The position numbers and the translations under genes were made by a program. Shown one piece after another: positions 2,926-42,636 of a stretch of DNA of 44,830 nucleotides; the stretch's first letter is position 1, and every line of letters begins with the position of its first letter. The notes beneath the pieces were generated by a model. The model searched no databases and had not been told where the DNA came from. It saw only the letters and a list, made by a program, of their open reading frames with translations. This DNA is from a bacterium (GTDB lineage: Bacteria > SZUA-182 > DTGQ01): assembly GCA_023512255.1 (NCBI GenBank), contig JAILZY010000022.1, positions 1 through 44,830 of the forward strand. The letters run 5' to 3'.

Positions 2926-2973
2926 GGAGAGAGGAGAAGGAGAATGCCTCAAGACTCCTTCTCCCTTCTCTCC
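2926..2973. terminator. Hairpin between convergent genes
   Basis: A 17-bp arm at 2926-2942 pairs with 2955-2973 with a two-base bulge, enclosing a 12-base loop. It lies between the plus-strand secreted protein gene and the 3' end of the minus-strand radical SAM gene. No T tract follows on either strand, so termination is likely but not certain. Confidence 0.5.
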
Positions 2974-2986
2974 ACCTTGTCAGCCT

Positions 2987-4411
2987 TTAAATTCCAGCTC
3001 CTAGCTGAGTATATTGCCGAAAGACCACCTTTGGTGATACCTTGGCCTGCACTTGCCGCTCCCAGGCTTCCAGCTCAGAGCGGCTAAGCGGCGTGTAGGG
3101 CCTAAGCCAATAGGGTGTGTTGGGCTTTGGGGTCATGCGGGAAAAAAAGACCCGATCAGGGCAGCTTTGATTGAGAAATTCTACCGTGCCAGCCAAATGT
3201 TCCTCATACATCTGCCGACCACCATAGCCAGAGATGATCATACAGGCTAATTCTAAACCTGCCTCGCGGATCATCCTGGCGGCGATCAGCGACTGCCTCT
3301 GGTTGACCCCTTTATTCATATCCTGCAATATGCGATCGCTCCCAGATTCTATGCCTAGATAGATTCTGCAAAGCCCACTCTGCCTAAGCCGCCGCAGGTC
3401 AGCCACGGATTTCCCCTCGATCTTTCTTCCATCTCCTGTGATACTCAATACGCTGGAAAAAGCGCTCAGGCGGGGAATTTCAGGAAATTTTTGGCGCAAA
3501 AACTTGATAAGCACCTCAATCGTTTTAGGCGAAGCAGCCAAAGCATCCCCCTCAGCTAAGAAAAGCTCATACCCACTCTTTACCCTCCCATCGAGCCAGT
3601 CCAATTTCCTCTGGGCATAGAGCAGGACCTCGTCCGGGGAAAAAAGACGAGAAGGCCGATCGAGAAAGGTATCACAAAAGCTGCACGGACCATACACAGA
3701 TCGCTTTATGCATCCCTGCATGACTGGGAAACAAAGCCGGGGGTCGGCAAAGGGGGGAAGGACCAAGGATAGGTCAAAAATAAAATCCTGAGCCTTCTGC
3801 CGCTCTGCTTCAAGGGCTTGAAAATCAAAGGCAAGAGCATCGCGGATCAGGTCTAAAAGCTTTGGCCTACAGTCAATTCTACAATCCAGGATTGTTCGGT
3901 GAGCTCGCCTGAGTATGGTATAGGCAGAGTCTGTCAGGCTTCTAATCGATATATCTGCCGAGGATATATCCGCCGAGCTGGGGAGAAAAGGAAAATCGTC
4001 CGCCCAGAAAATAGCCCCCATTTCTCTTTCTCTATCCCCTGGCTGCGGATAAGACCACCTTCCCCAAAAATCCCGCTCAAGAAGCAGGTGTGATACCCGC
4101 TGCTCCCTCATTCTGGGCGTAGTAAAGCGGATATAGCTCAGGCGACCATAATCGAAGGCAAAGCGATATTCACAGCCAGAGGGGCAGAGGGTAGAAAGGA
4201 TGAGCCTGCCTTCAGTATGGGCGGCAGTGAGGGCCCAAGTTAGGGACTCATCGGTAGTAAAGCGAATACTATAATCATCAAGCATGAACCATCGAGCATA
4301 AATCGAGCATAAAATTCTATGCCAGCAATCATTGAGGAGATGAGGCCAATTAACAGCCTCAGCAAGCCAGCCTCTACAAGGCTCCTTTGGGCGGCGGAAG
4401 AAGCTTTTCAA
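2987..4411 (-). CDS. Radical SAM superfamily protein
   Basis: The 474-residue frame has a cysteine motif at C234, C243 and C246 (GCIKRSVYGPCSFC). The outer spacing is eight residues rather than the classical three, as in some YgiQ/COG1032-like radical SAM enzymes with extended loops. Downstream, an EGDALAASP segment and a YLGIESGSDRIL segment (about 370-380) match the SAM-binding barrel, with GIESGSD strongly typical. The N-terminal 200 residues are not recognised. The start is uncertain: the frame opens with TTG at 4411 and overlaps the upstream gene by 38 bases, while an ATG at 4285 before LDDYSIRFTTDE is the main alternative; neither has a good Shine-Dalgarno site. The substrate is unknown. 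Confidence 0.75.
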   Translation of the reverse strand: MKSFFRRPKEPCRGWLAEAVNWPHLLNDCWHRILCSIYARWFMLDDYSIRFTTDESLTWALTAAHTEGRLILSTLCPSGCEYRFAFDYGRLSYIRFTTPRMREQRVSHLLLERDFWGRWSYPQPGDREREMGAIFWADDFPFLPSSADISSADISIRSLTDSAYTILRRAHRTILDCRIDCRPKLLDLIRDALAFDFQALEAERQKAQDFIFDLSLVLPPFADPRLCFPVMQGCIKRSVYGPCSFCDTFLDRPSRLFSPDEVLLYAQRKLDWLDGRVKSGYELFLAEGDALAASPKTIEVLIKFLRQKFPEIPRLSAFSSVLSITGDGRKIEGKSVADLRRLRQSGLCRIYLGIESGSDRILQDMNKGVNQRQSLIAARMIREAGLELACMIISGYGGRQMYEEHLAGTVEFLNQSCPDRVFFSRMTPKPNTPYWLRPYTPLSRSELEAWERQVQAKVSPKVVFRQYTQLGAGI

Positions 4412-6559: not shown

Positions 6560-7093
6560 TCAATGGCAATACCTTTTCCAAGACGGACCGCAGATATCGA
6601 GTGAGCATTGTTCGCACTCATGCTGATTTTTTCTCTGCCGAATCATCTGCTGAATGGTATGAAAAAGGTACTGAAGCAGTGGATACTCAGTGTGCGCTTT
6701 GATCGAGTCCCGTAAATCTAAGGGAATAGATTGGATCATCGGGTGAATTCCCCGCTCAGTACGAAGATCTGGGGATAAGAAGGCCAGAATGGGGTGAAAA
6801 TCCCTGATTAGAGCCTCAAGAATCTCTTTCCAGCCTATATTTTGCTCCTGGCAAAGGCAAGCTATATAGAAGGGAGTTGTGGCAATCAGGGTGCAGTCGG
6901 CCAGTCGACTTCCAGCAATCATTTGATCTTTCAAAGATTTTTGTTCTTGTTCCTCTTCTGACTGGACTGGTCTTAAGGTCTCAAAACCAAAATCGCGGGC
7001 AATTTTTTCAATAAGTCGAATAAACGGCTCATCCTCCGGGCAAAGGCTCCAGCTAATAAAGGCTCTGGGCTCAAAAGCGAATGGTGGCTTCAT
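6560..7093 (-). CDS. Hypothetical protein with TIR-like N-terminal region
   Basis: The 177-residue product starts at an ATG with AAGGGG eight bases upstream. The opening AFISWSLCPEDEPFIRLIEK, followed by IARDFGFETL and later DQMIAGSRLADCTLIATTPF, follows the strand-helix-strand pattern of TIR or TIR-like (toll/STIR) domains: an FISWS strand, a helix with acidic residues, and an I..sR.aD..L..T segment. The expected catalytic Glu region (GWKEILEAL, 87-95) is only partly similar, so NADase activity is not claimed. The C-terminal 40 residues are rich in His, Cys, Gln and Arg. It follows the shortened dehydrogenase-like gene on the same strand, 117 bases apart. Confidence 0.5.
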   Translation of the reverse strand: MKPPFAFEPRAFISWSLCPEDEPFIRLIEKIARDFGFETLRPVQSEEEQEQKSLKDQMIAGSRLADCTLIATTPFYIACLCQEQNIGWKEILEALIRDFHPILAFLSPDLRTERGIHPMIQSIPLDLRDSIKAHTEYPLLQYLFHTIQQMIRQRKNQHECEQCSLDICGPSWKRYCH

Positions 7094-7210
7094 GGTCTGT
7101 CCCCTTCTGTAAGTTTTAGCCCCGCGGTTAATACATGCCTATTTTCTGGTGTCTTCTTATTCTATCGGCAACTTGCTGCTCATTCCCATCCTGATGAAAA
7201 TAATTTTCTC

Positions 7211-7789
7211 CTATCGCACTCTGACTAGCTCTTTTTTCATAATCGCGGCCAATTCTCTGATAAGGGAAAGAGTCTCTTCAGAAGTCTGCTCTGTGCAGGC
7301 TACCTCGATTAGAGGCGTTCGGTAAGCTGGATTAAAGAAATTCACCCCTACTACCCGCTCTGGATAAGAGGTTTTTAAAGCTATCTCATCGATAGCTACC
7401 GTATTGGTAGCCACAAGAACCGTAGAAGGTGTACACAGGTGCCCAAGGGAGTTGAAGAGTTTCTTTTTCATGTTCACGCTCTGAATCAAGGCCTCAATGA
7501 CAAGATCAGATTCAGCTATAAGACTCAACTCGGTGGTAATATAGATATTACAGACAATCCGCTCCCTCTCCTCCTGACTGAGAGAAGAGGGTTGAAAATC
7601 ATGCTGAAGGGTGGCCTCGATTTTCCTCTGTACCTTTCGCTCTTCCTGCCGGGTCCATAAAATAACTGGCAAATCAGCCTGGGCCAGGGCAATAGCTATT
7701 CCCCGGCCCACGGTTCCACCTCCCAGCACTGCAAGCTGATTTATGCTGGATGCCCCTCCATCCACTCTGTGCTTCGACCGCAGAATCAT
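7211..7789 (-). CDS. Short 3-hydroxyacyl-CoA dehydrogenase-like protein
   Basis: The 192-residue product is the NAD-binding half of the 3-hydroxyacyl-CoA dehydrogenase family: AVLGGGTVGRGIAIALAQAD (GxGxxG at 23-28), SDLVIEAL and TNTVAIDEIA. Two things are odd. The family's catalytic His in the HFFNP motif is Asn here (GVNFFNP, N150), while the partner Glu is kept (LIEV, E162). The protein also stops at KKELVRVR, where family members continue into a DSPGFxxNR segment and an all-helical dimerisation domain of about 100 residues. No continuation was found in other frames downstream. It may be a decayed gene or a repurposed NAD-binding protein. The ATG at 7789 has GGAGGTAGGAG upstream, at a rather long spacing. 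Confidence 0.75.
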   Translation of the reverse strand: MILRSKHRVDGGASSINQLAVLGGGTVGRGIAIALAQADLPVILWTRQEERKVQRKIEATLQHDFQPSSLSQEERERIVCNIYITTELSLIAESDLVIEALIQSVNMKKKLFNSLGHLCTPSTVLVATNTVAIDEIALKTSYPERVVGVNFFNPAYRTPLIEVACTEQTSEETLSLIRELAAIMKKELVRVR

Positions 7790-7890
7790 ATGAATATGTA
7801 AACTCCTACCTCCCAGGTTGTATCATCTATCTGTCGGCTCTAAACAACTCCCAGTTTGAGTTTTCAGTCAGTATCGACCTTTTTTCTTAG

Positions 7891-8194: not shown

Positions 8195-8357
8195 GACATG
8201 AAATGACTGCACTTAGAAGGCACATACAAAACCGGAAGATAAAATGTGTCCGGTAGTAAAAAGCGCGTTTCACAAGGTAGGGGTGGGTTTTAAACCTACT
8301 CCTGCGTGTAGGGGCGGACCCAAAGTCCCCCCTACAATTGATTGGGCAATTGATTGG

Positions 8358-8397
8358 GTAATTGGATCTGCTCTCGCATTTAGCGAAAGAACCATTA
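8358..8397 (+). repeat. Dispersed intergenic repeat, copy 2 (TAGCGAAAGAACCATTA)
   Basis: Related to 6351-6404; the terminal 22 bases are the same apart from one base. It ends 11 bases before the start chosen for the nucleotidyltransferase gene, so it could carry its promoter or leader. Confidence 0.65.
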
Positions 8398-8408
8398 TAA
8401 CTGAGGCA

Positions 8409-9689
8409 ATGATGATTGAAAAAAATGGCTATGAAATGTTCAAAAGTAGTGCGGGTGAAATATTAATCTGCTGTCTTGGTCTTGGGAGCATGAAGCCCTC
8501 AGAAGAGAATCTCAGGAAACTGTCACCCTCTGCTTGGGAGAGAATAATACGGCAGGCTATCCGCTACAGCGTCGCTCCGCTTCTCTATCACCGGCTGAAG
8601 GTATCTGGTCTTGAAGCACTCATTCCCCGCGACGCTGCCCGGAAGCTGCGAGATAGCTACCTCGCCAATGCCATAAAGAACCTGCACCTGTATCAAGAGT
8701 TATCAACCATTATCCAAACCTTCCATGAGCGAGGTCTTGCGGCTATTGTCTTGAAAGGTGCGCATCTGGCTAAGATTGTTTACGGCAATAGTGCCCTTAG
8801 GTATATGTGTGATCTAGACCTGCTGGTGAGGAAAGAAGAGCTTCCCCTAGCCATAAGCTCTCTATCAGACAAAGGCTATCATCCTATCAAGCCCTTTGAT
8901 ATTGAAGAGGTTTGCACTCAAAAGCATCATCTTCCTACCTTTATCAAAAAAGATCAGCTAGTCTATCAGATCGAGCTCCACTGGCATATTGAGCCCCCCA
9001 CCGATCCCTTTACCGTTAATCTTGAGGGGCTGTGGCAGAGAGCCCAGAAAGCCACGATCAACAACCTTCCCATCCTGGTCTTATCCCCTGAAGACCTGAT
9101 CCTGCATCTGTGCATGCACACTGTCCACCATATCCTCGATCTAGGATTGAGGCCCCTGTGTGATCTGTCCGAAACTATCCGACACTACCAGGCTGAAATT
9201 GACTGGAAATCCCTGCAGCTTCGCTCAAGGGAATGGAAGGCGGATAAACCCCTCTATCTTATGCTCTCCCTCCTTGTAGAGTTCGCCGGCCAGGCCGCTC
9301 CGCAGGGTGTTCTCGACATCCTCAAAGCAAATACCATTGAGCCGCATCATTTTGTGACCAAACTGAAAAATCATATCATGATGAAAATGAGTGACTCTGT
9401 GGCCTTGACGACAGATATAGCCAGGTTTTGGAAACCTAAAAAGCCGACCGACAGGATAGCCCTATTTTGGCAAAAAGCCTTTCCTCCCCGTGCGTACCTA
9501 GCCAAAATATATCGGATTAGGAAAGAATCAGCTCTGGTTTATCTCTTCTATCCAGTGCATATTATCGACCTAATCATTCGCTACGGATACACCCTGTGGC
9601 GGCTATTTCGCCATGATGCCGAACTGGTGCCCTTGGCCGAGCTTGAGAGCAGCCAGCTTGATCTCAGGGACTGGCTCCTATCGCCCTGA
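8409..9689 (+). CDS. PF14907-type nucleotidyltransferase family protein
   Basis: The motif VLKGAHLAKIVYGNSALRYM followed by CDLDLLV and a GYHPI segment is the signature of the 'uncharacterised nucleotidyltransferase' family, with DLD supplying the metal-binding acidic residues. The frame is open from 8244, but its first 55 codons are built from intergenic repeats. I therefore place the start at the ATG at 8409 (next ATG 8412) after CTGAGGCA, giving 426 residues. Family members are often found near polysaccharide or peptide-modification genes; here the neighbours give no such hint. The substrate is unknown. Confidence 0.75.
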   Translation: MMIEKNGYEMFKSSAGEILICCLGLGSMKPSEENLRKLSPSAWERIIRQAIRYSVAPLLYHRLKVSGLEALIPRDAARKLRDSYLANAIKNLHLYQELSTIIQTFHERGLAAIVLKGAHLAKIVYGNSALRYMCDLDLLVRKEELPLAISSLSDKGYHPIKPFDIEEVCTQKHHLPTFIKKDQLVYQIELHWHIEPPTDPFTVNLEGLWQRAQKATINNLPILVLSPEDLILHLCMHTVHHILDLGLRPLCDLSETIRHYQAEIDWKSLQLRSREWKADKPLYLMLSLLVEFAGQAAPQGVLDILKANTIEPHHFVTKLKNHIMMKMSDSVALTTDIARFWKPKKPTDRIALFWQKAFPPRAYLAKIYRIRKESALVYLFYPVHIIDLIIRYGYTLWRLFRHDAELVPLAELESSQLDLRDWLLSP

Positions 9690-9756
9690 AGGCGGCTATC
9701 GTCTTCTTTGCCCTGAGCTAACAAGAAAAGCTAGTCTGATTAGATAAGTCAATTTT

Positions 9757-9779
9757 GCCTTCACCCAATGGGTGAAGGC
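9757..9779. terminator. Bidirectional-type terminator hairpin
   Basis: GCCTTCACCC (9757-9766) and GGGTGAAGGC (9770-9779) form a perfect 10-bp stem with a 3-base loop. TTTT precedes it and GATTTT follows, so both strands get a short U run. It sits between the convergent nucleotidyltransferase and permease genes. Confidence 0.8.
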
Positions 9780-33882: not shown

Positions 33883-34398
33883 TTACTCCTCTTGTAGTTT
33901 CTCAATAGCCATCTTTAATAAATTCATCCGGTTGATTGGGCGGTCTTCTTTCTTCTGAGAAAAAATAGCCCGCACCATCTGATGCCGCATCTTTTGCGAC
34001 AGGCGGTCAATTTCATCAATATGCTTGACAAAGGAGGGGTGAACATACTTTTCCCGCACCGCCATGTCACGCAAAACACCCATAATGTCAGTAAACTTTA
34101 CATTCTGCGGACATCGCGCATAACAGGTATAGCAGAGCGAACACAGCCAGATCAGATTGGAAGATAAAACCTCCTCCTTCATACCCAATAAGATCATCCT
34201 GATCAACTTGCGGGGGTTGTACTCATTGTCAACCTCAGTCGCCGGACAGCCAGCCGTGCAGATGCCGCAGGAGAAGCATAACTTGAGATTCTCTCCCCCG
34301 GGTTGCTCAGAGACCTCATACTTGAATTTCGGATCCAATTCTAAGATATTGACTGGAGCTTTTCCCTCGATGGTGGCACTTTCTTTTTCTTCTGACAC
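33883..34398 (-). CDS. hdrC: Heterodisulfide reductase subunit C-like protein
   Basis: The 171-residue product carries two [4Fe-4S] motifs, CFSCGICTAGCP (about 41-52) and CSLCYTCYARCP (about 86-97), with the HdrC spacing and an EYNPRKLIRMILLG segment. HdrC normally passes electrons from HdrA to HdrB, but no gene with the HdrB CCG repeats is in the window. It starts with GTG at 34398, AAAGGAGG lying about 14 bases upstream, and ends 7 bases before the giant hdrA start. It is the first gene after the toxin-antitoxin patch. Confidence 0.9.
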   Translation of the reverse strand: MSEEKESATIEGKAPVNILELDPKFKYEVSEQPGGENLKLCFSCGICTAGCPATEVDNEYNPRKLIRMILLGMKEEVLSSNLIWLCSLCYTCYARCPQNVKFTDIMGVLRDMAVREKYVHPSFVKHIDEIDRLSQKMRHQMVRAIFSQKKEDRPINRMNLLKMAIEKLQEE

Positions 34399-34516
34399 CG
34401 GTATTACCTACCCTCCTTTATGAAAATGGCCAAGGATTATAATTATGCCTATTAGACACCTAAAAGCCTTCACCTTTTTGAATATCAACCAGGCTAGCAA
34501 TTTGTTAGTTATTTTT

Positions 34517-34942
34517 TTAGAGTATAATTAATTTTATTTCCTGAATATTATCAAAATCTCTATAATTAATTGTTGCTATTTGATCAATTTTATTCCATAA
34601 TCCAATACTGATTATTTCAAAATCATGAATTTTTAATCCTGTAGATTTATATTTTCGCAGCAATTCTCTGAAAATAGCAAACGAACCCTCTGTAGGATAT
34701 AAGACTGTTAGAACGTTAATAAAATCTCCTACGGCTGCTAGCGCCTCCTCAATGGGTAAGAAAGTAACACTAGATCTTGTAACTACAGTTAAAAATTCTG
34801 ATAAGTTTTTAGAAGTTGTAAATAAGTTATGATTAGAATTTAATAATAACTCTCGAGAGCGATAATAAAACTTTGAATCCTCATCAATTGCATAAACTAA
34901 AATATTTGTATCAACAAGTATATTATTTGTATGCTTTTTCAT
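34517..34942 (-). CDS. vapC: PIN-domain VapC-like toxin
   Basis: The 141-residue PIN-domain ribonuclease has the acidic active-site set at D11 (LVDTNILVYAID), E49 (NLSEFL), D107 (KIHDFEI) and D129. VapC toxins cleave RNA, often tRNA, and are held inactive by a cognate antitoxin. The start overlaps the upstream antitoxin gene by 20 bases. Codon use is distinctly AT-rich compared with the neighbouring Wood-Ljungdahl genes, which suggests transfer. It sits in the middle of the hdr/met cluster in the same orientation. Confidence 0.88.
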   Translation of the reverse strand: MKKHTNNILVDTNILVYAIDEDSKFYYRSRELLLNSNHNLFTTSKNLSEFLTVVTRSSVTFLPIEEALAAVGDFINVLTVLYPTEGSFAIFRELLRKYKSTGLKIHDFEIISIGLWNKIDQIATINYRDFDNIQEIKLIIL

Positions 34943-35102
34943 GAATATTTATATTATCGAATTGCCCTTTTAATTTAAAGGAACGAATTTTGGCTTTTCC
35001 CTGATCATCCCTTTTTATTGTTTTGATAAACTGGTAAATCTGATCCAACAAGTCTTCTGGAAGCCCCTCAATCTCTTTCTTAAGCTGATCTTTGGTAATC
35101 AT
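34923..35102 (-). CDS. Small antitoxin-like protein (DUF2281/VapB-like)
   Basis: The 59-residue frame is preceded by a strong TAGGAGGA nine bases before the ATG. It begins MITKDQLKKEIEGLPEDLLD, then QIYQFIKTIKR, the leucine-rich N-terminal pattern of DUF2281-type antitoxins (LPxxLLxxIxxFI), and ends with a basic segment likely to wrap the toxin. Its 3' end overlaps vapC by 20 bases. I identified it directly from the sequence because it is short. Together the two form a typical type II module. Confidence 0.8.
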   Translation of the reverse strand: MITKDQLKKEIEGLPEDLLDQIYQFIKTIKRDDQGKAKIRSFKLKGQFDNINIHEKAYK

Positions 35103-35278
35103 GATTGATTTTCCTCCTATGGTATTGTATTCTCAATCTCAATGGCTTCCCCACCTCCATGAAAAATTACTATACTATAGCACCCTTGAGCTCGGCCAAA
35201 TCAGAGCCAATATCTGTATACCGCCTTCTCCCTTACCTATCCGCGCTGGGTATGCGGTAACAAAGCGCAGGCTGTCTT

Positions 35279-35650
35279 CTAATCCCAGGCCAAAAGAGCT
35301 TTTGCCTGCTGAGCATGAAAGCCTACATCCCACCACTTCCTACTAACAAGCATGTCCTGGTCAGCTTTTTGCAAAAACCTTTCGGCAAGTTTAAGACTTC
35401 TCATAACCCGCTCTCGCCCTTTTAGTCTTTGCTTTATTGATAACCGTCCCTTTAACTTGAAGCCCATTCAGCAAAACCAGCCTCACTGACCACCAGAATA
35501 TCTGCTTGAGAATGCGCATTAGCTGGATAGCGTCCGTGGAGTCGAAACATCTCCTTTCGGCGGCTTTTGCCCGATTTCTCAACAACAAGAAAATCTAACT
35601 CAGACTGCTCACCAGCCTCACCACAAAACCCTAAAAGCCTTACCCCCCTC
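35279..35650 (-). pseudogene. Relic of an MNT/HEPN toxin-antitoxin pair
   Basis: Directly after the metF stop, one frame reads GEAGEQSELDFLVVEKSG, then DILVVSEAGFAEWASS and stops at 35452. This matches the central part of a minimal nucleotidyltransferase antitoxin but lacks its GSRARG-type N-terminus. In another frame, 35404-35279 reads AERFLQKADQDMLVSRKWW then DVGFHAQQAKALLAWD, the start of a HEPN toxin that stops after about 41 of the usual 120 residues. Both halves are truncated, so neither is likely functional. The 175 bases to its left (35103-35278) hold nothing I recognise. Confidence 0.7.
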
Positions 35651-36596
35651 ACTCTGCGGCTACCTCTGGCCGCGGCCAAAGCCCAGCCTCCCTGACAACC
35701 GTCGGCACGATCTCTTCCCACTCAACAGCCATAATGTGCACCCCGCGAATGCCGGGAATTTCCCGCACAGCCTGAATCAGCTCAACACAAATCTTTACCC
35801 CTTCGGCCTTGGCGTCCTTTGCCCCTTCCATCCTGCGGATAAGCTCATCCGGGATGCTCATTCCAGCCACATTATTTTTCATGTACTGAAGCACCTTAGG
35901 GGATTTGATCGGCATGATCCCAGCCAGGATAAAGACCTTCTCATGCAGCCCCTGATCAACCACCATCTCCATCCAGCGCTTGAATTTAGGCAGATCAAAG
36001 ATGCACTGAGTCTGAACAAAGTCAGCCCCAGCTTTAATCTTTTTAGCTAGCCGAACCACACGAAATTCAAACGGATCAGCGAAGGGATTGGCAGCTACGC
36101 CCAAAAACATCCGAGGCTCCAGGAGGTCGGATTTTTTCGTGTTACGAATTTCCTCACCGCACTGAAACACCTTCTCATCCCGCATCCTTTTAGCCATCTG
36201 CACCAGTTGAATAGAGTCCAGGTCATAGACATTCTTGGCCTGGGGATGGTTGCCAAAGCTCTGATGATCCCCACTCAGACACAGGAGGTTTCGCAAGCCA
36301 AGCACATAGGCCCCCAGAATATCAGACTGCATGGCCAGCCGGTTGCGATCCCGGCAGGTCATCTGAATAATCGGCTCAAGGCCCTCATCCAGGGCGATTT
36401 TCCCAGCAGCAATACTAGATACCCGGACAATGGCCGTCTGGTTGTCGGTGATATTGACCGCATCCGCAAAGCCGCGCAAAATTCCCGCCTTATGCTTGAT
36501 CAATTGAATATCTGCACTCTTTGGTGGCCCAAGCTCTGCAGTAGCCACAAATTCCCCTTGGATCAAAAGCTTTTCCAGTCGGCTCCCTGCCTTCAT
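35649..36596 (-). CDS. metF: Methylenetetrahydrofolate reductase, copy 1
   Basis: The ATG at 36596 overlaps the metV stop (ATGA) and has GGAGGA upstream, giving 315 residues; the frame is open 87 bases further but inside metV. It reduces 5,10-methylene-THF to 5-methyl-THF, the donor for AcsE. Conserved segments are FVATAELGPPK (catalytic Glu), VNITDNQTA, QMTCRDRNRLAMQSDILGA, LCLSGDH, FLGVAANPF, GADFVQTQCIFD and ILAGIMPI. It pairs with the metV immediately upstream. It differs clearly from the second metF at 40956. Confidence 0.95.
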   Translation of the reverse strand: MKAGSRLEKLLIQGEFVATAELGPPKSADIQLIKHKAGILRGFADAVNITDNQTAIVRVSSIAAGKIALDEGLEPIIQMTCRDRNRLAMQSDILGAYVLGLRNLLCLSGDHQSFGNHPQAKNVYDLDSIQLVQMAKRMRDEKVFQCGEEIRNTKKSDLLEPRMFLGVAANPFADPFEFRVVRLAKKIKAGADFVQTQCIFDLPKFKRWMEMVVDQGLHEKVFILAGIMPIKSPKVLQYMKNNVAGMSIPDELIRRMEGAKDAKAEGVKICVELIQAVREIPGIRGVHIMAVEWEEIVPTVVREAGLWPRPEVAAE

Positions 36597-37261
36597 AGAC
36601 ACATATCCTCCCTGATCACCTTTCGCGGCCCTCCATTCCGACTCCTTGACCAGTCTTTGGCAGGCATAATCTCTTCGAGGCATCCGAGTCGGCCAAGGCT
36701 CTTTAAGCGCTCATAAATCAAATGCCAGCCACAGTCAATCTCTTTATTGATTTCACACTTGCCATTTTGCGATCCCCCGCAGGGGCCGTTCAGCAGGCTT
36801 TTTGAGCAGCGAGAAATAGGACAGATGCCACCGGTCTTATCCAGAATGCACTGGCCACAGGCTTGACAGCGCTCAACCCACACCCCCTGTCGCTCCGGCA
36901 GCCCCAGCAGCTTGGTATTCAGGGCCGGCACAACCGCAAGGTTGGGAAACTGCTCGGCTATGGTCTGAACACCGATTCCGCATCCCATCGAAATCAGAAG
37001 ATCATGCCCTCTGACTGTGCTTTGGAGCGAGTCCACAAACTCTTTCTCACACTGGCGCTCAATGCTGATCTCATCTACCTGCACTTTTTTGCCCCTGGCC
37101 CTGGCTGCAAGCCGCAGACTGCAAGCTAAAATAGCCACCTCCTTGGCTCCGCCAGCCAAACAAACCGTAACGCAGGTATCACAGCCAATGACCAAAATAT
37201 TCTGATACCCTTCAGTCATGGGGATAATTTCAGCTATATCTTTCTGTTCTGCAACAATCAT
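36593..37261 (-). CDS. metV: MetV-type methylenetetrahydrofolate reductase partner, copy 1
   Basis: The 222-residue protein is the MTHFR C-terminal/zinc- and Fe-S-binding partner MetV. An N-terminal VIGCDTCVTVCLAGG and SMGCGIGVQTIAEQFP precede a Cys-rich part: CQACGQCILDKTGGICPIS, KSLLNGPCGGSQNGKCEI and DCGWHLIYERL. In Moorella, MetV with MetF forms the core of an Hdr-linked reductase. Overlaps of four bases with both mvhD (upstream) and metF (downstream) show tight coupling. Confidence 0.93.
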   Translation of the reverse strand: MIVAEQKDIAEIIPMTEGYQNILVIGCDTCVTVCLAGGAKEVAILACSLRLAARARGKKVQVDEISIERQCEKEFVDSLQSTVRGHDLLISMGCGIGVQTIAEQFPNLAVVPALNTKLLGLPERQGVWVERCQACGQCILDKTGGICPISRCSKSLLNGPCGGSQNGKCEINKEIDCGWHLIYERLKSLGRLGCLEEIMPAKDWSRSRNGGPRKVIREDMCL

Positions 37262-37671
37262 GGTTTCACCTTTATCGGACTTGGCCCCAGGCTCTTGATG
37301 CTTTCATTGCCCTGTCGAACCAGATCCAAAAATTGAGTCCATTCCAGCTCGGACAGATAAAAAAATCGCAGCCGCTCTTTTTCAATGCCGATCTTCTCCA
37401 GCAAAGCGGCCGTATGCTCGATCCTCTTCCCTGCCCGCACATTCCCTAGCAGAAACCGGCAGCTATCCGGATGGCAGGCAAAGACAAAAACTCCATCAGC
37501 CCCCTCTTCAAAAGCCTTCAAGATATGGATGACTTCGAGTTTTCCCGAACAGGGAAGCCGGCAGATGCTGATATTGGAGGGATACCCTTCCTGCCTCGCC
37601 CCTGCGGTATCTGCTGCCCGATAGGCAGAATTTTCACAACAAAAAGCCACAATGGCTGGTGTAAAGTCCAT
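37258..37671 (-). CDS. MvhD-like iron-sulfur subunit, copy 2
   Basis: The 137-residue MvhD-family protein has VAFCCENSAYRAADTAGA, ICRLPCSGKLEVIHILKAF and VFACHPDSCRFLLGN. The first motif has CCENS rather than the CNWC of the other copy, and the second and third are typical. It likely bridges the HdrA-like proteins encoded just upstream to MetFV. The stop overlaps the metV start by four bases, and it begins 13 bases after the HdrA-like gene. Confidence 0.9.
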   Translation of the reverse strand: MDFTPAIVAFCCENSAYRAADTAGARQEGYPSNISICRLPCSGKLEVIHILKAFEEGADGVFVFACHPDSCRFLLGNVRAGKRIEHTAALLEKIGIEKERLRFFYLSELEWTQFLDLVRQGNESIKSLGPSPIKVKP

Positions 37672-37684
37672 GTGATTCTACCCC

Positions 37685-39472
37685 TTACAAGGTTAGTTCA
37701 GAGAAAATCTGATCATCTGAATACTGCACCATCTCAATCGCCTTGGCCGGACACTCCCCGGCACAGATTCCGCACCCCTGACAGGCCTGTGGGATAACCC
37801 TGGCTCCCCATTTCTGCCCAGCTTTAACCTCTCCGAATTCAATCGCCCGGTGCGGACAGGTACGAATGCAGGTCAAACACAAAGCGCACTTATCAGTGTT
37901 GATGACTACCTTTTGCTCCACGGCAAGGTTTGGTCGGGATAGGAGGGAGAAGACAGCCATAGCCACTGACCTAATATCATTAAGCATCTCGCCCCCATCC
38001 TCCACCCCGTGACAGGAGCCAACCACAAATACTCCTCTCCGGTTTGAGAGATTAGGCTTAAGGTGAATATTCCCCTGGTAAAAAGAGCTAATGCCAGCCA
38101 GATCAACCCTGAGAATGCTCTGTAGGGTTTCGGTCCCAAGGCTTGGGAGAACCTCATCCTCAAGAGCTAAAAGATCAGCCTGAATCAGGATGGGATAGCC
38201 ACCATCATCTTCCCCACTTGCGCTTTCCCTAATACAGTCGGCTAGAGCTGAATCATATACTCTAACCTTGATAACTCCCTTCTCAAGGCTCACCTGAGGA
38301 GGCCTACTTTCCGGTGTGCGGAAAAACAAAACCCCGGATTGCCGAGCCAACCGATAAAGATCCTCAAGACCAGTGCCGCAGACAATGATATCTGAGGCCA
38401 CAATCGCCACCTCAGCCTTAAAGCGCCGCCTCAAGAGGATGGCTTGATTTAAAGCCATAATGCTCGCCCGTTTGACAAAAGGGGCGACCAATGATTTTTC
38501 TCCCTGCGGCCCATCACCACCTAGGATAAAGCAAACGTGCTTGGCCCGGCGCTCGGCAGTAATCATCATCCGCTCAAGTCTCTCTGGCTCGGCCTCGATC
38601 ATCTTCTGAAGCCGCCCAAGGCTGACTATCCGGCTATAAGAGCCTAATTTAGCCAAATTCGCCCCATCCTCAAGCCGAGAGCCAGAAGCCACCACAATGC
38701 TTCCAACCTCAACGAGCCGCTCCCTGCCCTGAGTGTCTAGCACAACCCGAAAAGCCCCGACGCCGCCAGCCACTTCCCTGACCTCAGTGGAGGTTAAAAG
38801 CTCGATCTTTTTATGGCTAAGCTCTTTCACAAGAGCAGAAAAATCATGCCTCTGGCCACCTGTGTCCTGGCCACTACTGCTGCCGCCATTACCTAGAATA
38901 GTGCAGGGAGTTGGCAAAAAAGCCTCTCTCTCTCCTTCCGGCCGAGGTTGGCTGTCAATCAGAAGCGGCTGAATCCCAAGCCGGTGAAGCTCCAGGGCTA
39001 TCCGAACGCCGCTTTCTCCTGCGCCGATAATCAGGGCCGAAGAGCTCATCCTGGCCTGCACCATATCGACTGGTTTGGCCAAGGCCACCCGGTGGATAGC
39101 TGCCTTGAGCATCCGCTCGGCCTTGGGCAGACACTCTTTTTTGTCCCGACACACCCAGACACACCCCTCGCGGAGATTGGCTATGGTCATCAGGGAGCGA
39201 TTGAGTCCTGCTTCCTCAATTGCCTGCCTGAATTTTAGCTCGTGCTGATGCGGCGAGCAGCCAGCAATAACCACACGCTCACAGCCTGAGCGGGCGATTT
39301 TGATCTTAAGCCACTCAAGGCCACTCTTGGTACAAAGAAAGCCGCACTCATCAACCGAGCTAACACCAGGCTCCTTAGCCGCAGAGGCCAATAAAGCCCT
39401 GGTATCAAAATAATCATTCATCATATGGCCGCAGGTGCACAAAAATACCCCGATCTTGGGCGAACTATCCAT
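37685..39472 (-). CDS. HdrA-like subunit, C-terminal-type, partly degenerate
   Basis: The 595-residue protein is colinear with the second HdrA unit of the giant fusion: IGVFLCTCGHMMNDYF, VVIAGCSPHQHELKFRQAI, FAD motif LIIGAGESGVRIALEL (150-155) and two C-terminal [4Fe-4S] motifs (CALCLTCIRTCPHRAIEF, CQGCGICAGECPAKAIEM). The conserved QCVGSR...YCSRVCC cluster site is lost; the corresponding stretch reads CFILGGDGPQGEKS (314-327) with no Cys set. It may retain FAD and the ferredoxin relay only. AGGAGGT lies five bases before its ATG, inside the previous gene, which it overlaps by 8 bases. Confidence 0.88.
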   Translation of the reverse strand: MDSSPKIGVFLCTCGHMMNDYFDTRALLASAAKEPGVSSVDECGFLCTKSGLEWLKIKIARSGCERVVIAGCSPHQHELKFRQAIEEAGLNRSLMTIANLREGCVWVCRDKKECLPKAERMLKAAIHRVALAKPVDMVQARMSSSALIIGAGESGVRIALELHRLGIQPLLIDSQPRPEGEREAFLPTPCTILGNGGSSSGQDTGGQRHDFSALVKELSHKKIELLTSTEVREVAGGVGAFRVVLDTQGRERLVEVGSIVVASGSRLEDGANLAKLGSYSRIVSLGRLQKMIEAEPERLERMMITAERRAKHVCFILGGDGPQGEKSLVAPFVKRASIMALNQAILLRRRFKAEVAIVASDIIVCGTGLEDLYRLARQSGVLFFRTPESRPPQVSLEKGVIKVRVYDSALADCIRESASGEDDGGYPILIQADLLALEDEVLPSLGTETLQSILRVDLAGISSFYQGNIHLKPNLSNRRGVFVVGSCHGVEDGGEMLNDIRSVAMAVFSLLSRPNLAVEQKVVINTDKCALCLTCIRTCPHRAIEFGEVKAGQKWGARVIPQACQGCGICAGECPAKAIEMVQYSDDQIFSELTL

Positions 39473-40751
39473 GTCTTACCTCCTCCCGCCTCCTCATCAA
39501 GGCCAGGGCCCGCATCGCCGCCTCCTGACCATGCAAGATCGATTCAACCAAGCTCTTTGGCCCTTGGCAGGTACCGGCCAAGAAAATCCCCGGCCGAGCG
39601 GTGATGGTAGAATCTGTAAGATCAAGCGGAGCAAAGAATCCATCCAAGCCAAGCTTTAAGCCAAGGGTTTGAGCCAGAGACTGATTTTCCTCACTAGGGG
39701 CAACTCCTACCGATAAAACTACAAGATCAAAATCAGCCCTCTCCATGCGCCCCTGATCGATATTCTCATACCGCATCGATACCCTGTCTCCTCCCTCCGC
39801 TGCTGGCCCAATTTCCACTGGAAGCCCTTTCACCAGGCGGATTTTCCCGCTCATCCGCTCAAGCAGGCCGAGAAACTCTCTCTCTGTCCGCTGAAGGTCG
39901 ATAAAGAAAATGGTTATTTCAGCCTCAGGTATCTGGAATTTCAGCTTAGCGGCCGCTCGAACAGCATATTTGCAGCATACCCGAGAGCAGTAATCCTGTC
40001 CGATGTGCGGATCGCGCGATCCGACACACTGAACGAAGGCAATGCGTGGGACATCCCCTGCGGCCCGCGGAACTAGGCTCTTAGCCTCGCCTGCAAGCAG
40101 CCGCTGCTCAAGGTCCAGCCCTGAAATAACCTGCCGAAGCCGGCCATAGCCAAAATGCCCCTTTCGCCTGGCATCATAGGCCGAAAAACCACTGGCCACA
40201 ATCACTACCGAAGCCCGCAGGGTTATCAACTCCTCCTGCTGATCGAAGGAGATAGCCCCAGCCGGACAGATCGTGCGGCAAAGATCGCAATCTCCTCTCT
40301 CCTCCTGAAAGAGGAGACACTCGCTCTGGTTAATGACATATCCACTCGGAATAGGGGAAAGATAAGCTCGACTTATGGCCCTATCCGGCTTTGGGCATCT
40401 TTGATAGCATAGGGAGCAGGCAGTGCATTTTTCAACATCGATAAATTGCGGCTTTCGCCTAACCGTAACCACAAAGCCAGATCCGCTCTCTTGCACATCG
40501 ACCACTTCGGCCTGAGTCAGCAGATGAATATTGGGGCAAGAGGCAGCTTTTATGATCTTGTCCCGAGCCAGGCAGACACCACAACTGTTGCACTGATCAG
40601 TGGCCTTACAGCCGAAGCGAAGAGCATGTCCACCAATACTTGGTTTTTTTTCAATGACATACACCTGGCAGCCGCTATCAGCCAGGGAAAGGGCAGAGCT
40701 GACCCCGGCAATCCCGCCGCCGATAACAATGGCTTGATCCTGATCGTTCAA
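39465..40751 (-). CDS. HdrA-like subunit, N-terminal-type (QmoA-like)
   Basis: The 428-residue flavoprotein has an FAD motif AIVIGGGIAGVSSALSLA (8-25), an N-terminal cluster site CKATDQCNSCGVCLARDK, ferredoxin motifs CTACSLCYQRCPKPDRAIS and CDLCRTICPAGAISF, and the intact QCVGSR (241-246) and YCSRVCC (254-260) motifs. Length and lack of a C-terminal ferredoxin resemble QmoA. With the next gene it equals the giant HdrA minus its GltD insert. The start is TTG at 40751, convincingly supported by AAGGAGGT about eight bases upstream. Confidence 0.9.
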   Translation of the reverse strand: MNDQDQAIVIGGGIAGVSSALSLADSGCQVYVIEKKPSIGGHALRFGCKATDQCNSCGVCLARDKIIKAASCPNIHLLTQAEVVDVQESGSGFVVTVRRKPQFIDVEKCTACSLCYQRCPKPDRAISRAYLSPIPSGYVINQSECLLFQEERGDCDLCRTICPAGAISFDQQEELITLRASVVIVASGFSAYDARRKGHFGYGRLRQVISGLDLEQRLLAGEAKSLVPRAAGDVPRIAFVQCVGSRDPHIGQDYCSRVCCKYAVRAAAKLKFQIPEAEITIFFIDLQRTEREFLGLLERMSGKIRLVKGLPVEIGPAAEGGDRVSMRYENIDQGRMERADFDLVVLSVGVAPSEENQSLAQTLGLKLGLDGFFAPLDLTDSTITARPGIFLAGTCQGPKSLVESILHGQEAAMRALALMRRREEVRHG

Positions 40752-40770
40752 GGTCTGAAACCTCCTTCGA

Positions 40771-40928
40771 CGAATACTATCCTTGCGAATACTACTTGCG
40801 AATACTATATAAGGTAACTTCTCATCTCTTGCGCTGTAATCTCTTCTTTTCCTAATGGCTTAAGAGCCTCTTCTTCCCCCTATCCGGCCAAATTGATCTT
40901 GCCACGTTATATACAAATTGATCTTGCC
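40771..40928. repeat. Short direct repeats in the metF-hdrA spacer
   Basis: CGAATACTA occurs three times (40771, 40786, 40799). CAAATTGATCTTGCC occurs twice exactly (40889-40903 and 40914-40928). These fill the 204-base gap between the second metF and the HdrA-like gene; no gene is seen there. Confidence 0.85.
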
Positions 40929-40955
40929 GGTTATAGAGTTTTTGGGGATGGCCAC

Positions 40956-41864
40956 TTAAATCCCTGCCTCATCCAGGACAGCCGGTATGTGCTCCTCAAG
41001 CCCAATAGCCATGATATGCACCCCGTCGCATCTTTCCCGAAGGTGGCGAATCTGCTGACCAGCCATCCTAATGCCTGCCTCAAGGGGATTGGCCGAGGGT
41101 TCAAGCTCTTTTACTACCCGCTCTGGCACCACAACCCCTGGCACATGCTCATTGACGTAGCGAGCCGCGGCCGCGGATCGCACCAGCAAAACCCCAGCCA
41201 GAATTTTCGCTCCAAGCTCCCTGGCATACCCCATGAACTGGTCGAACCTCTCAAGATCATACACCGCCTGGGTCTGAAAAAACCTGGCTCCGGCAGCCAC
41301 CTTTTGGAAAAACCGCCAAATTTGAGGCTCCAGCGGATTGGCCTCTGGATTGACCACCGCACCGGCAAAAAGATTCGTGCCACCTGCCAGGGTGGCGCCA
41401 TTGACCAGCGGCTTTCCTCCGCTTGAGCGGCTGGAGAGATCTCGCCCCTGATTGAGCCGAGTAATAACCTGCAAAAGCTGAGTAGAATCAAGATCATAAA
41501 CTGCCTTGGCCTCGGGATGATCACCCGCGGTAGGATGATCACCAGTCAAAACCAAAACATTGCGAATACCCAAAACCGCGGCACTCAAAAGATCAGACTC
41601 CAGAGCAAGACGGTTTCGATCCCGACAGGTTATCTGATAAATAGGATCAAATCCCCGCTCCTTAAGCAGATGGCAGGCAGCTAAAGACCCTAGCCTCATG
41701 ACCGCACTTTGATTGTCGGTTACATTAATCCCATGCACCCTCCCCTTGAGCCTTTCGGCGCAAGCCAGCATCCTAGAAACATCGGTGCCCTTCGGAGGAG
41801 CAAGCTCGACAGTGATCACAAACTGATTCTGCTCCAAAGCCTGCTGAAAACCCAATCCTACCAT
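40956..41864 (-). CDS. metF: Methylenetetrahydrofolate reductase, copy 2
   Basis: The 302-residue MetF has FVITVELAPPKGTDVSRM (catalytic Glu), GINVTDNQSAV, QITCRDRNRLALESDLLSA, LVLTGDHPTAGDHPEA, GARFFQTQAVYDLERF and AGVLLVRS. Compared with copy 1, it has AVVNPEANP in place of GVAANPFADP and a Gly/Ser-rich loop near 145-155. Both copies look catalytically competent. It follows its own metV after 97 bases and precedes the split HdrA genes. Which copy serves the main pathway cannot be told here. Confidence 0.94.
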   Translation of the reverse strand: MVGLGFQQALEQNQFVITVELAPPKGTDVSRMLACAERLKGRVHGINVTDNQSAVMRLGSLAACHLLKERGFDPIYQITCRDRNRLALESDLLSAAVLGIRNVLVLTGDHPTAGDHPEAKAVYDLDSTQLLQVITRLNQGRDLSSRSSGGKPLVNGATLAGGTNLFAGAVVNPEANPLEPQIWRFFQKVAAGARFFQTQAVYDLERFDQFMGYARELGAKILAGVLLVRSAAAARYVNEHVPGVVVPERVVKELEPSANPLEAGIRMAGQQIRHLRERCDGVHIMAIGLEEHIPAVLDEAGI

Positions 41865-41961
41865 CCTCTACTCAAATCCTACCATCATCTGTCCGAAGCT
41901 AGATCTAAAAGCACAATCTTATTAGGTGTTTGTTATGAGAAAGATCTGTCCCGCCCCAGCA

Positions 41962-42636
41962 CTATTTCTCAACCCCCGGCCTGTCAACCACCAGCCTGCG
42001 GGGTCTGAGACCTTGGGAATGATCCCGCGGGCCGCGAATGGTCAAGGCCGCAGCCTCCGCCCCGCCAGTAGCTTTCAGACGCTCATATATCAAAACCCAG
42101 GCACAATCCCGCTGCCGGTCAAGCTCGCATCTGCCATCCTTCATCCCACCGCAAGGGCCATTCAGCAGCCCCTTGGAGCAAGCGGTTAAGGGACAGATGC
42201 CGCCGGTTTTATTCAGGATACAGTCACCTCCACACAGCGAGCAGCGCTCCTCAAATTGACCAAACCGCTCAATGTTACCCAGAAACAAGCTGTCAAGAGC
42301 AGCGACGACCGGGGCCGTAGTTAACAGTTTTCCAACGGCCTGAACACCTCCACCGCAGGCCATAACCAAAATGGCCTCGCTCGCAGACAGCTCAGCCCGA
42401 TGAGCCCGCAGCTCTTTTTTACTCCTCAGCACATGACAGACCGCCTCAAGTACGGCCAATCCAGTAATCTCTTTGCCCTCCTCTTGCACCAGTCGATCCC
42501 TCATCCTGATCACCTGCTCTTGTCCTCCACTCTGGCAGAGCGTGGCGCACAGACCGCAGCCGATCAGAAATATCTTCTCCTTTCCCTGAAGGGCGCTTTG
42601 AATCTCAGCAAAGGGTTTTGGCCGGGTGATAATCAT
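41962..42636 (-). CDS. metV: MetV-type partner, copy 2
   Basis: The 224-residue protein repeats the MetV plan: LIGCGLCATLCQSGGQEQ, VMACGGGVQAVGKLL, then CSLCGGDCILNKTGGICPL, KGLLNGPCGGMKDGRCEL and DCAWVLIYERLKATGG. The cysteine pattern is complete. It starts two bases after the gcvH stop, so translation is probably coupled. It pairs with the metF copy downstream. Confidence 0.92.
   Translation of the reverse strand: MIITRPKPFAEIQSALQGKEKIFLIGCGLCATLCQSGGQEQVIRMRDRLVQEEGKEITGLAVLEAVCHVLRSKKELRAHRAELSASEAILVMACGGGVQAVGKLLTTAPVVAALDSLFLGNIERFGQFEERCSLCGGDCILNKTGGICPLTACSKGLLNGPCGGMKDGRCELDRQRDCAWVLIYERLKATGGAEAAALTIRGPRDHSQGLRPRRLVVDRPGVEK

Follow-up and report, generated by a model that had tools for sequence, protein, structure and literature searches.

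A metF-hdrC gap in a Wood-Ljungdahl gene cluster as a probable landing site for toxin-antitoxin modules

Here, we describe a gap between metF and an hdrC-like gene that most likely was opened as a landing site for toxin-antitoxin (TA) modules in the ancestor of a bacterial genus and has seen module turnover since then, with the surviving vapBC pair being, in all probability, an ordinary type II system (we put the probability of this reading at about 0.82). In the window, that is, the whole stretch of 44,830 nucleotides that was analyzed (from genome G000), this gap contains an intact vapBC pair next to the remnants of an MNT-HEPN pair. The junction is empty in the six genomes outside the genus in which metF directly precedes hdrC, and the sister species G001 carries a different and much longer row of TA genes in the same place.

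Organization of the locus

All genes of interest are encoded on the minus strand, in the 5' to 3' order metV, metF, patch, hdrC-like gene and HdrA (Table 1), which confirms the claim of the sequence-only reading that the patch separates metVF from hdrC-hdrA. Genes for a methyltransferase, CODH/ACS gamma, CODH catalytic, and CODH/ACS alpha/beta proteins follow hdrA further downstream, identifying the locus as a Wood-Ljungdahl cluster. Within the patch, the features described for the antitoxin gene (59 residues, a strong ribosome-binding site, and a 20-base overlap with vapC) were all recovered, and the sequence between this gene and the metF stop is degraded.

Two metV-metF copies that are about 40% identical, along with further HdrA-type proteins, are located in the cluster at 35649-37671 and 37685-42636. 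HdrA itself is 87% identical over its full length to the protein of G001 and 77% to that of G002, and by eye a GltD-like NAD(P)-binding part appears to be inserted near its N-terminus.

The direct repeat CCTAAAAGCCTT, which could be a target-site duplication, is found on both sides of the patch. A 12-base match arose by chance in 0.07% of 1500 simulated pairs, a value that applies to a repeat picked after the fact, and visual inspection of the hdrC edge of the G001 gap revealed no second copy.

Table 1. Features of the metF-hdrC region in the window and of the corresponding gap in the sister species
Feature	Location	Strand or direction	Basis or remark
metV	36593-37261	-	upstream of metF
metF (methylenetetrahydrofolate reductase)	35649-36683	-	PF02219, E 2.4e-39; upstream neighbour of patch
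metF stop codon	35649-35651	-
Direct repeat (12 bp) CCTAAAAGCCTT, metF side of patch	35630-35641
MNT remnant with 3' flank, homologous to G001 DNA	35388-35624	-	DNA comparison
HEPN toxin remnant (gene start, then frame lost)	35282-35404	-	intact homologues in G006, G008
Ribosome-binding site AGGAGG of antitoxin gene	35113-35118	-	10 nt 5' of ATG
Antitoxin gene, 59 codons, VapB-like in position	34923-35102	-	ORF list
Overlap of vapC and antitoxin gene, 20 bases	34923-34942	-
vapC, intact, 141-aa PIN-domain toxin gene	34517-34942	-	ORF list, Pfam, conserved residues
Direct repeat (12 bp) CCTAAAAGCCTT, hdrC side of patch	34459-34470
hdrC leader, common to G001	34399-34438	-	other edge of patch
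hdrC-like gene	33883-34398	-	downstream neighbour of patch
HdrA, 1499 aa	29406-33905	-
RelB-like antitoxin	L026 (G001) 823-1026	operon direction	Pfam, over gathering score
Phd/YefM antitoxin	L026 (G001) 2969-3193	operon direction	Pfam, over gathering score
PIN toxin, with Phd/YefM	L026 (G001) 3193-3579	operon direction	Pfam, over gathering score
HicB remnant	L026 (G001) 7007-7162	operon direction	Pfam, over gathering score
ParE-like	L026 (G001) 7533-7796	operon direction	Pfam, over gathering score
TumE	L026 (G001) 8223-8618	operon direction	Pfam, over gathering score
Nucleotidyltransferase	L026 (G001) 8746-8967	operon direction	Pfam, over gathering score
Antitoxin orthologue	L026 (G001) 9034-9213		75% protein identity to the antitoxin in the window
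HicA	L026 (G001) 9294-9566	operon direction	26.6 bits, just below cut-off of 27
HicB	L026 (G001) 9550-9768	operon direction	Pfam, over gathering score

The metF-hdrC junction in related genomes

A search of 60 genomes for HdrC orthologues produced a match at an e-value of 1e-20 or better in 15, and four of these reached at least 80% identity, namely, the genome of the window, G001 (same genus), and G002 and G003 (same family). The distance from the metF stop to the hdrC start is 1250 bp in the window, 9360 bp in G001, 136 bp in G002 and 29 bp in G003; in four more loci, three from Dehalococcoidia and one from Poribacteria (L031-L034), the two genes overlap or are at most 136 bp apart. The 30 HdrC-aligned loci comprise these four, two that belong to G002 and G003 again, and 24 in which no metF match directly precedes hdrC and which were left out of the count; with metF in this position, the junction lacks an insert in 6 of 6 distinct genomes from outside the genus. 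An intact pair at this position is thus not a feature of all relatives, the junction being empty in those six genomes and occupied by other TA genes in G001.

These comparisons bear on the possibility that the operon has recruited the pair, for regulation of the Wood-Ljungdahl pathway or for stabilization of the locus, the latter having been proposed from the sequence. The pair and the operon share a strand, no terminator was found at the locus, and the antitoxin has the same position in the two species of the genus, but six other genomes with this gene order have nothing in the junction, and the loss of vapC from the site in the congener is mild evidence that the locus does not need it. Furthermore, such operons occur both with and without a nested TA pair, with no functional link found in the cases treated in the relevant part of PMC7167474. 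We consider recruitment very unlikely.

The gap in G001 includes at least nine co-directional genes of TA type detected with Pfam, eight of these over the gathering score and all in the direction of the operon (Table 1). Counting both strands, this gap has 83 ORFs of at least 40 aa, the majority being chance frames; 20 ORFs were run against Pfam, together with the MNT remnant. Other genes in the operon direction encode an HNH protein (just below the cut-off), a DUF2887 protein and a DUF4926 protein. The DUF2887 gene is followed in tandem by a decayed, truncated duplicate (L026, 5342-5724 and 5769-6193; 77% DNA identity over 425 bp). PADLOC assigned only weak or candidate names within the gap.

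The 9.4-kb gap of G001 is thus a row of small, co-directional genes rich in TA modules, as in superintegrons, and the patch might be a piece of an integron gene-cassette array, with an integron integrase and cassette recombination sites as the means of delivery; in G002, from the same family, integrase matches exceed the curated cut-off (C197, C103; L096). However, no integrase of G000 or G001 exceeded the TIGR02249 cut-off of 265 bits, the best scores being 87.9 in G000 and 92 in G001. The one short inter-module repeat has a 14-base core with two copies in G001, both in the gap, but is absent from G000, G002 and G003, and no cassette recombination site was recognized on inspection of the repeats. 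We consider an integron origin of the patch very unlikely.

Three segments are common to the patch in the window and the G001 gap and occur in the same order: the MNT remnant (76% DNA identity over 241 bp; 67% at the protein level), the antitoxin gene (81% over 185 bp), and the hdrC leader (93% over 59 bp), with the first two standing near the hdrC end of the G001 gap. The homology ends past the antitoxin stop. vapC is absent from the G001 site, where the codon at the position of the vapC start is, by eye, not a start codon, and the best G001 match (30% identical) is encoded on another contig. Given that the antitoxin and the MNT remnant are found in both species, the modules would have coexisted in the ancestor before one of them decayed. 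The initial description of the site as an insertion hotspot thus gains support from the six empty junctions and the different, larger TA set of G001, but the notion that one module replaced another proves too loose. MNT gene matches were found 22 times in G001, 2 in G000, 10 in G002, 6 in G003 and 3 in G004; with G001 being rich in such genes generally, the gap may be nothing unusual for this genome. The genus is represented by two genomes, G000 and G001, both draft assemblies in many contigs, and the history reconstructed here hence rests on one comparison.

Remnants of an MNT-HEPN pair

The HEPN stretch comprises 41 aa and matched 3 of 60 genomes, one of these being G000 itself. It is 71% identical over 35 aa to a protein of G006 (E 2.4e-7) and 58% identical to one of G008 (E 0.0014); both are open frames of 155 codons, recognized by Pfam as HEPN (E 1.5e-14 and 2.3e-17, respectively) and directly following an intact MNT (nucleotidyltransferase) gene. 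The same order, MNT then HEPN, is kept in the window, where both genes are broken and the MNT copy lacks the N-terminal part. Because Pfam detects the fragments in the window weakly (MNT, E 0.081; HEPN, E 0.082), their identity as MNT-HEPN rests on the relatives. Taken together, the intact HEPN homologues and the MNT remnant at the corresponding site of G001 confirm that a dead MNT/HEPN pair adjoins vapBC, as the sequence-only reading had proposed, and the fragments do begin at the metF stop, the MNT homology starting near 35624, about 25 bp past it. No match to the HEPN remnant was obtained among the plasmid records.

In G006, an intact pair of the same MNT-HEPN family is located between the genes for subunits E and C of the V-type ATP synthase, on the same strand (L094, 44-2947), which adds another case of a TA pair within an energy operon.

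The VapC toxin and its antitoxin

VapC matches the Pfam PIN domain (PF01850) with an e-value of 5.9e-11 and 43.5 bits (cut-off 23.6); the best NCBIfam model, TIGR00028, scored 42.2 bits, under its cut-off of 73.6. Residues D11, E49, D107, N126 and D129 are unchanged in all 5 of the homologues aligned, and we take D11, E49, D107 and N126/D129 to be the catalytic positions of the PIN domain. Among solved structures, VapC-type toxins were matched, only at E 0.03-0.04, and single-sequence structure prediction of VapC gave no usable fold (mean pLDDT 36.7). The gene is single-copy in G000, and PADLOC reported nothing for vapBC.

For the 59-aa antitoxin, no Pfam or NCBIfam family over the cut-off and no DNA-binding domain were found; the single-sequence model consists of two short helices (mean pLDDT 78.8). 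An origin from DUF2281 was considered, but G000 contains no DUF2281 match. In some loci of G002, G003 and elsewhere, a similar N-terminal helix region is, by eye, paired with PIN or other toxins. Without a recognized DNA-binding domain, self-regulation by the antitoxin is doubtful. A promoter scan yielded 3 sites, against 3.8 expected by chance, and the combination of these observations with the lack of a detected terminator makes read-through from the operon plausible.

In a tblastn search of 72,556 plasmid records, relatives of vapC were found in 8, all of them cyanobacterial. The best match, 56% identical, is in pEu1 of Euhalothece natronophila, a plasmid from another phylum, where vapC is preceded by a homologue of the antitoxin that is likewise 59 aa long (41.5%), with an 8-base overlap. 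This pair (L088, 2832-3420) follows type III-B CRISPR RAMP genes on the same strand. No vapC relative was detected in phage records, and viral contigs yielded one partial match (33%). The antitoxin search covered 193 genomes, with near-full matches at 1e-39 or better in two (G000 and G001), whereas the remaining 7 of the 9 matching genomes produced weak hits (1e-4 or worse).

The patch was also described as AT-rich, which the base composition bears out. The GC content of vapC is 27.0% (17.6% at third codon positions, GC3) and that of the antitoxin gene 31.7%, compared to 45-48% for the remnants, 52.5% for metF and 46.3% for hdrC. Over the whole window, 426-bp segments have a mean GC fraction of 0.497 (standard deviation 0.051), and all of those outside the patch exceed 0.30. 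The composition of vapBC is therefore unlike its surroundings, and the apparently older MNT-HEPN remnants are nearer to that of the host.

Age and constraint of the antitoxin

Substitution rates between G000 and G001 were computed by the Nei-Gojobori method with our own script. The dS is 0.864 for the antitoxin, 0.829 for hdrC and 1.282 for a stretch of metF; with a dS close to that of hdrC, the antitoxin appears to have been diverging for about as long as the surrounding operon. Its dN/dS is 0.172, a rough estimate from 32 synonymous sites, with a bootstrap 2.5-97.5% range of 0.043-0.437 and 0 of 1000 resamples at or above 1. Differences at codon positions 1, 2 and 3 number 8, 8 and 20, and hdrC and metF are held more tightly (0.062 and 0.038, respectively). 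These values indicate that the antitoxin has been present at the site since the common ancestor of the two species, apparently under purifying selection, and that it is, or for most of that time was, a translated and selected gene. An untranslated antitoxin ORF was not what we observed, the frame showing coding constraint. The description of vapBC as live is likewise favored by the intact frames, the catalytic residues, the antitoxin dN/dS and the plasmid-borne homologous pair, all of it support at the sequence level.

The same constraint could be explained if the antitoxin were kept as an anti-addiction gene against homologous VapC toxins of incoming plasmids, with the toxin dispensable. Consistent with this possibility, G001 retains the antitoxin frame with no vapC at the site and at best a 30% identical protein elsewhere, the dN/dS is 0.17, and a homologous pair is carried by a plasmid of another phylum. 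However, the constraint could predate the loss of the toxin in G001, the toxin is intact in the species of the window, and the plasmid search gave cyanobacterial plasmids only and no close homologue on a plasmid from this lineage. We consider the anti-addiction role unlikely.

History of the site and proposed mechanism

The reading that we favor, a TA landing site with module turnover, would have unfolded as follows. The ancestor of the genus would have carried an MNT-HEPN pair followed by the 59-aa antitoxin gene, most likely together with the PIN toxin gene vapC; with vapC at the site in one species only, its ancestral presence is deduced from the antitoxin. In the species of the window, MNT-HEPN would then have decayed to fragments while vapBC remained whole; the sister species, in which further TA modules are present, would have lost HEPN and vapC and retained the antitoxin alone. 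VapC is predicted to be a PIN RNase that stops growth by RNA cleavage, and VapB would bind and block it. The 20-base overlap may couple translation of the toxin to that of the antitoxin, and the pair would be expressed by read-through of the met-hdr operon.

Two cases, the metF-hdrC gap and the MNT-HEPN pair between the genes for V-type ATP synthase subunits E and C in G006, raise the broader idea that gaps in core energy operons of these bacteria are preferred and reused TA landing sites, with co-directional insertion just past a stop codon and read-through expression of modules that have neither a promoter of their own nor a DNA-binding antitoxin. We regard this generalization as improbable; if it were true, the small size of the antitoxin and its lack of a DNA-binding domain would reflect adaptation to a nested location.

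The locus provides a same-locus view of TA turnover, with an empty site, a shared remnant, a shared antitoxin and a lost toxin, for which the flanking genes serve as the yardstick of divergence. If read-through were demonstrated, the persistence of promoterless TA pairs inside operons would become amenable to testing.

Comparison with known systems

No account of this locus was found in the open-access literature searched. PMC7325909, a paper in which hdrA, metVF and the Wood-Ljungdahl pathway all occur, includes one mention of a TA system, the AbiEii phage-defence system, which is not tied to metVF there. The anti-addiction model is in print (its outline is given in PMC2654758).

The surviving pair resembles other VapBC systems in the PIN domain, the catalytic acids, the antitoxin gene coming first and the overlapping frames; unlike them, its 59-aa antitoxin fits no antitoxin family in Pfam or NCBIfam. 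The remnants share the MNT-HEPN gene order with type VII (MntA-HepT) systems, with intact homologues in G006 and G008, but both genes are broken in the window and G001 keeps only an MNT remnant.

Plastic TA sites nested in operons have already been described, and the locus analyzed here is a further example. As recounted in the section of PMC7167474 on such loci, mazEF (in the relA-mazG gap of E. coli) and yafNO (after dinB) are nested in larger operons with no functional link and the operons are undisturbed in strains lacking them, and the relA-mazG gap is occupied by parDE in Salmonella, so that TA insertion loci are plastic. The present pair is similarly placed between host-operon genes, is absent from relatives, and lies in a gap that holds different modules in different genomes. 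In contrast to those enteric loci, as presented there, the host operon here is metVF-hdrC-hdrA of the Wood-Ljungdahl pathway, a central carbon-fixation operon of an uncultured bacterium; moreover, the intact module has a decayed one next to it, and the congener has a 9.4-kb row of modules. The TAS islands and solo antitoxins described by Makarova et al. 2009 (PMC2701414) likewise comprise closely spaced TA genes of different classes and antitoxins without a toxin; compared with the islands as described there, the one reported here is surrounded by the genes of a metabolic operon, and relatives show what its site looks like when empty.
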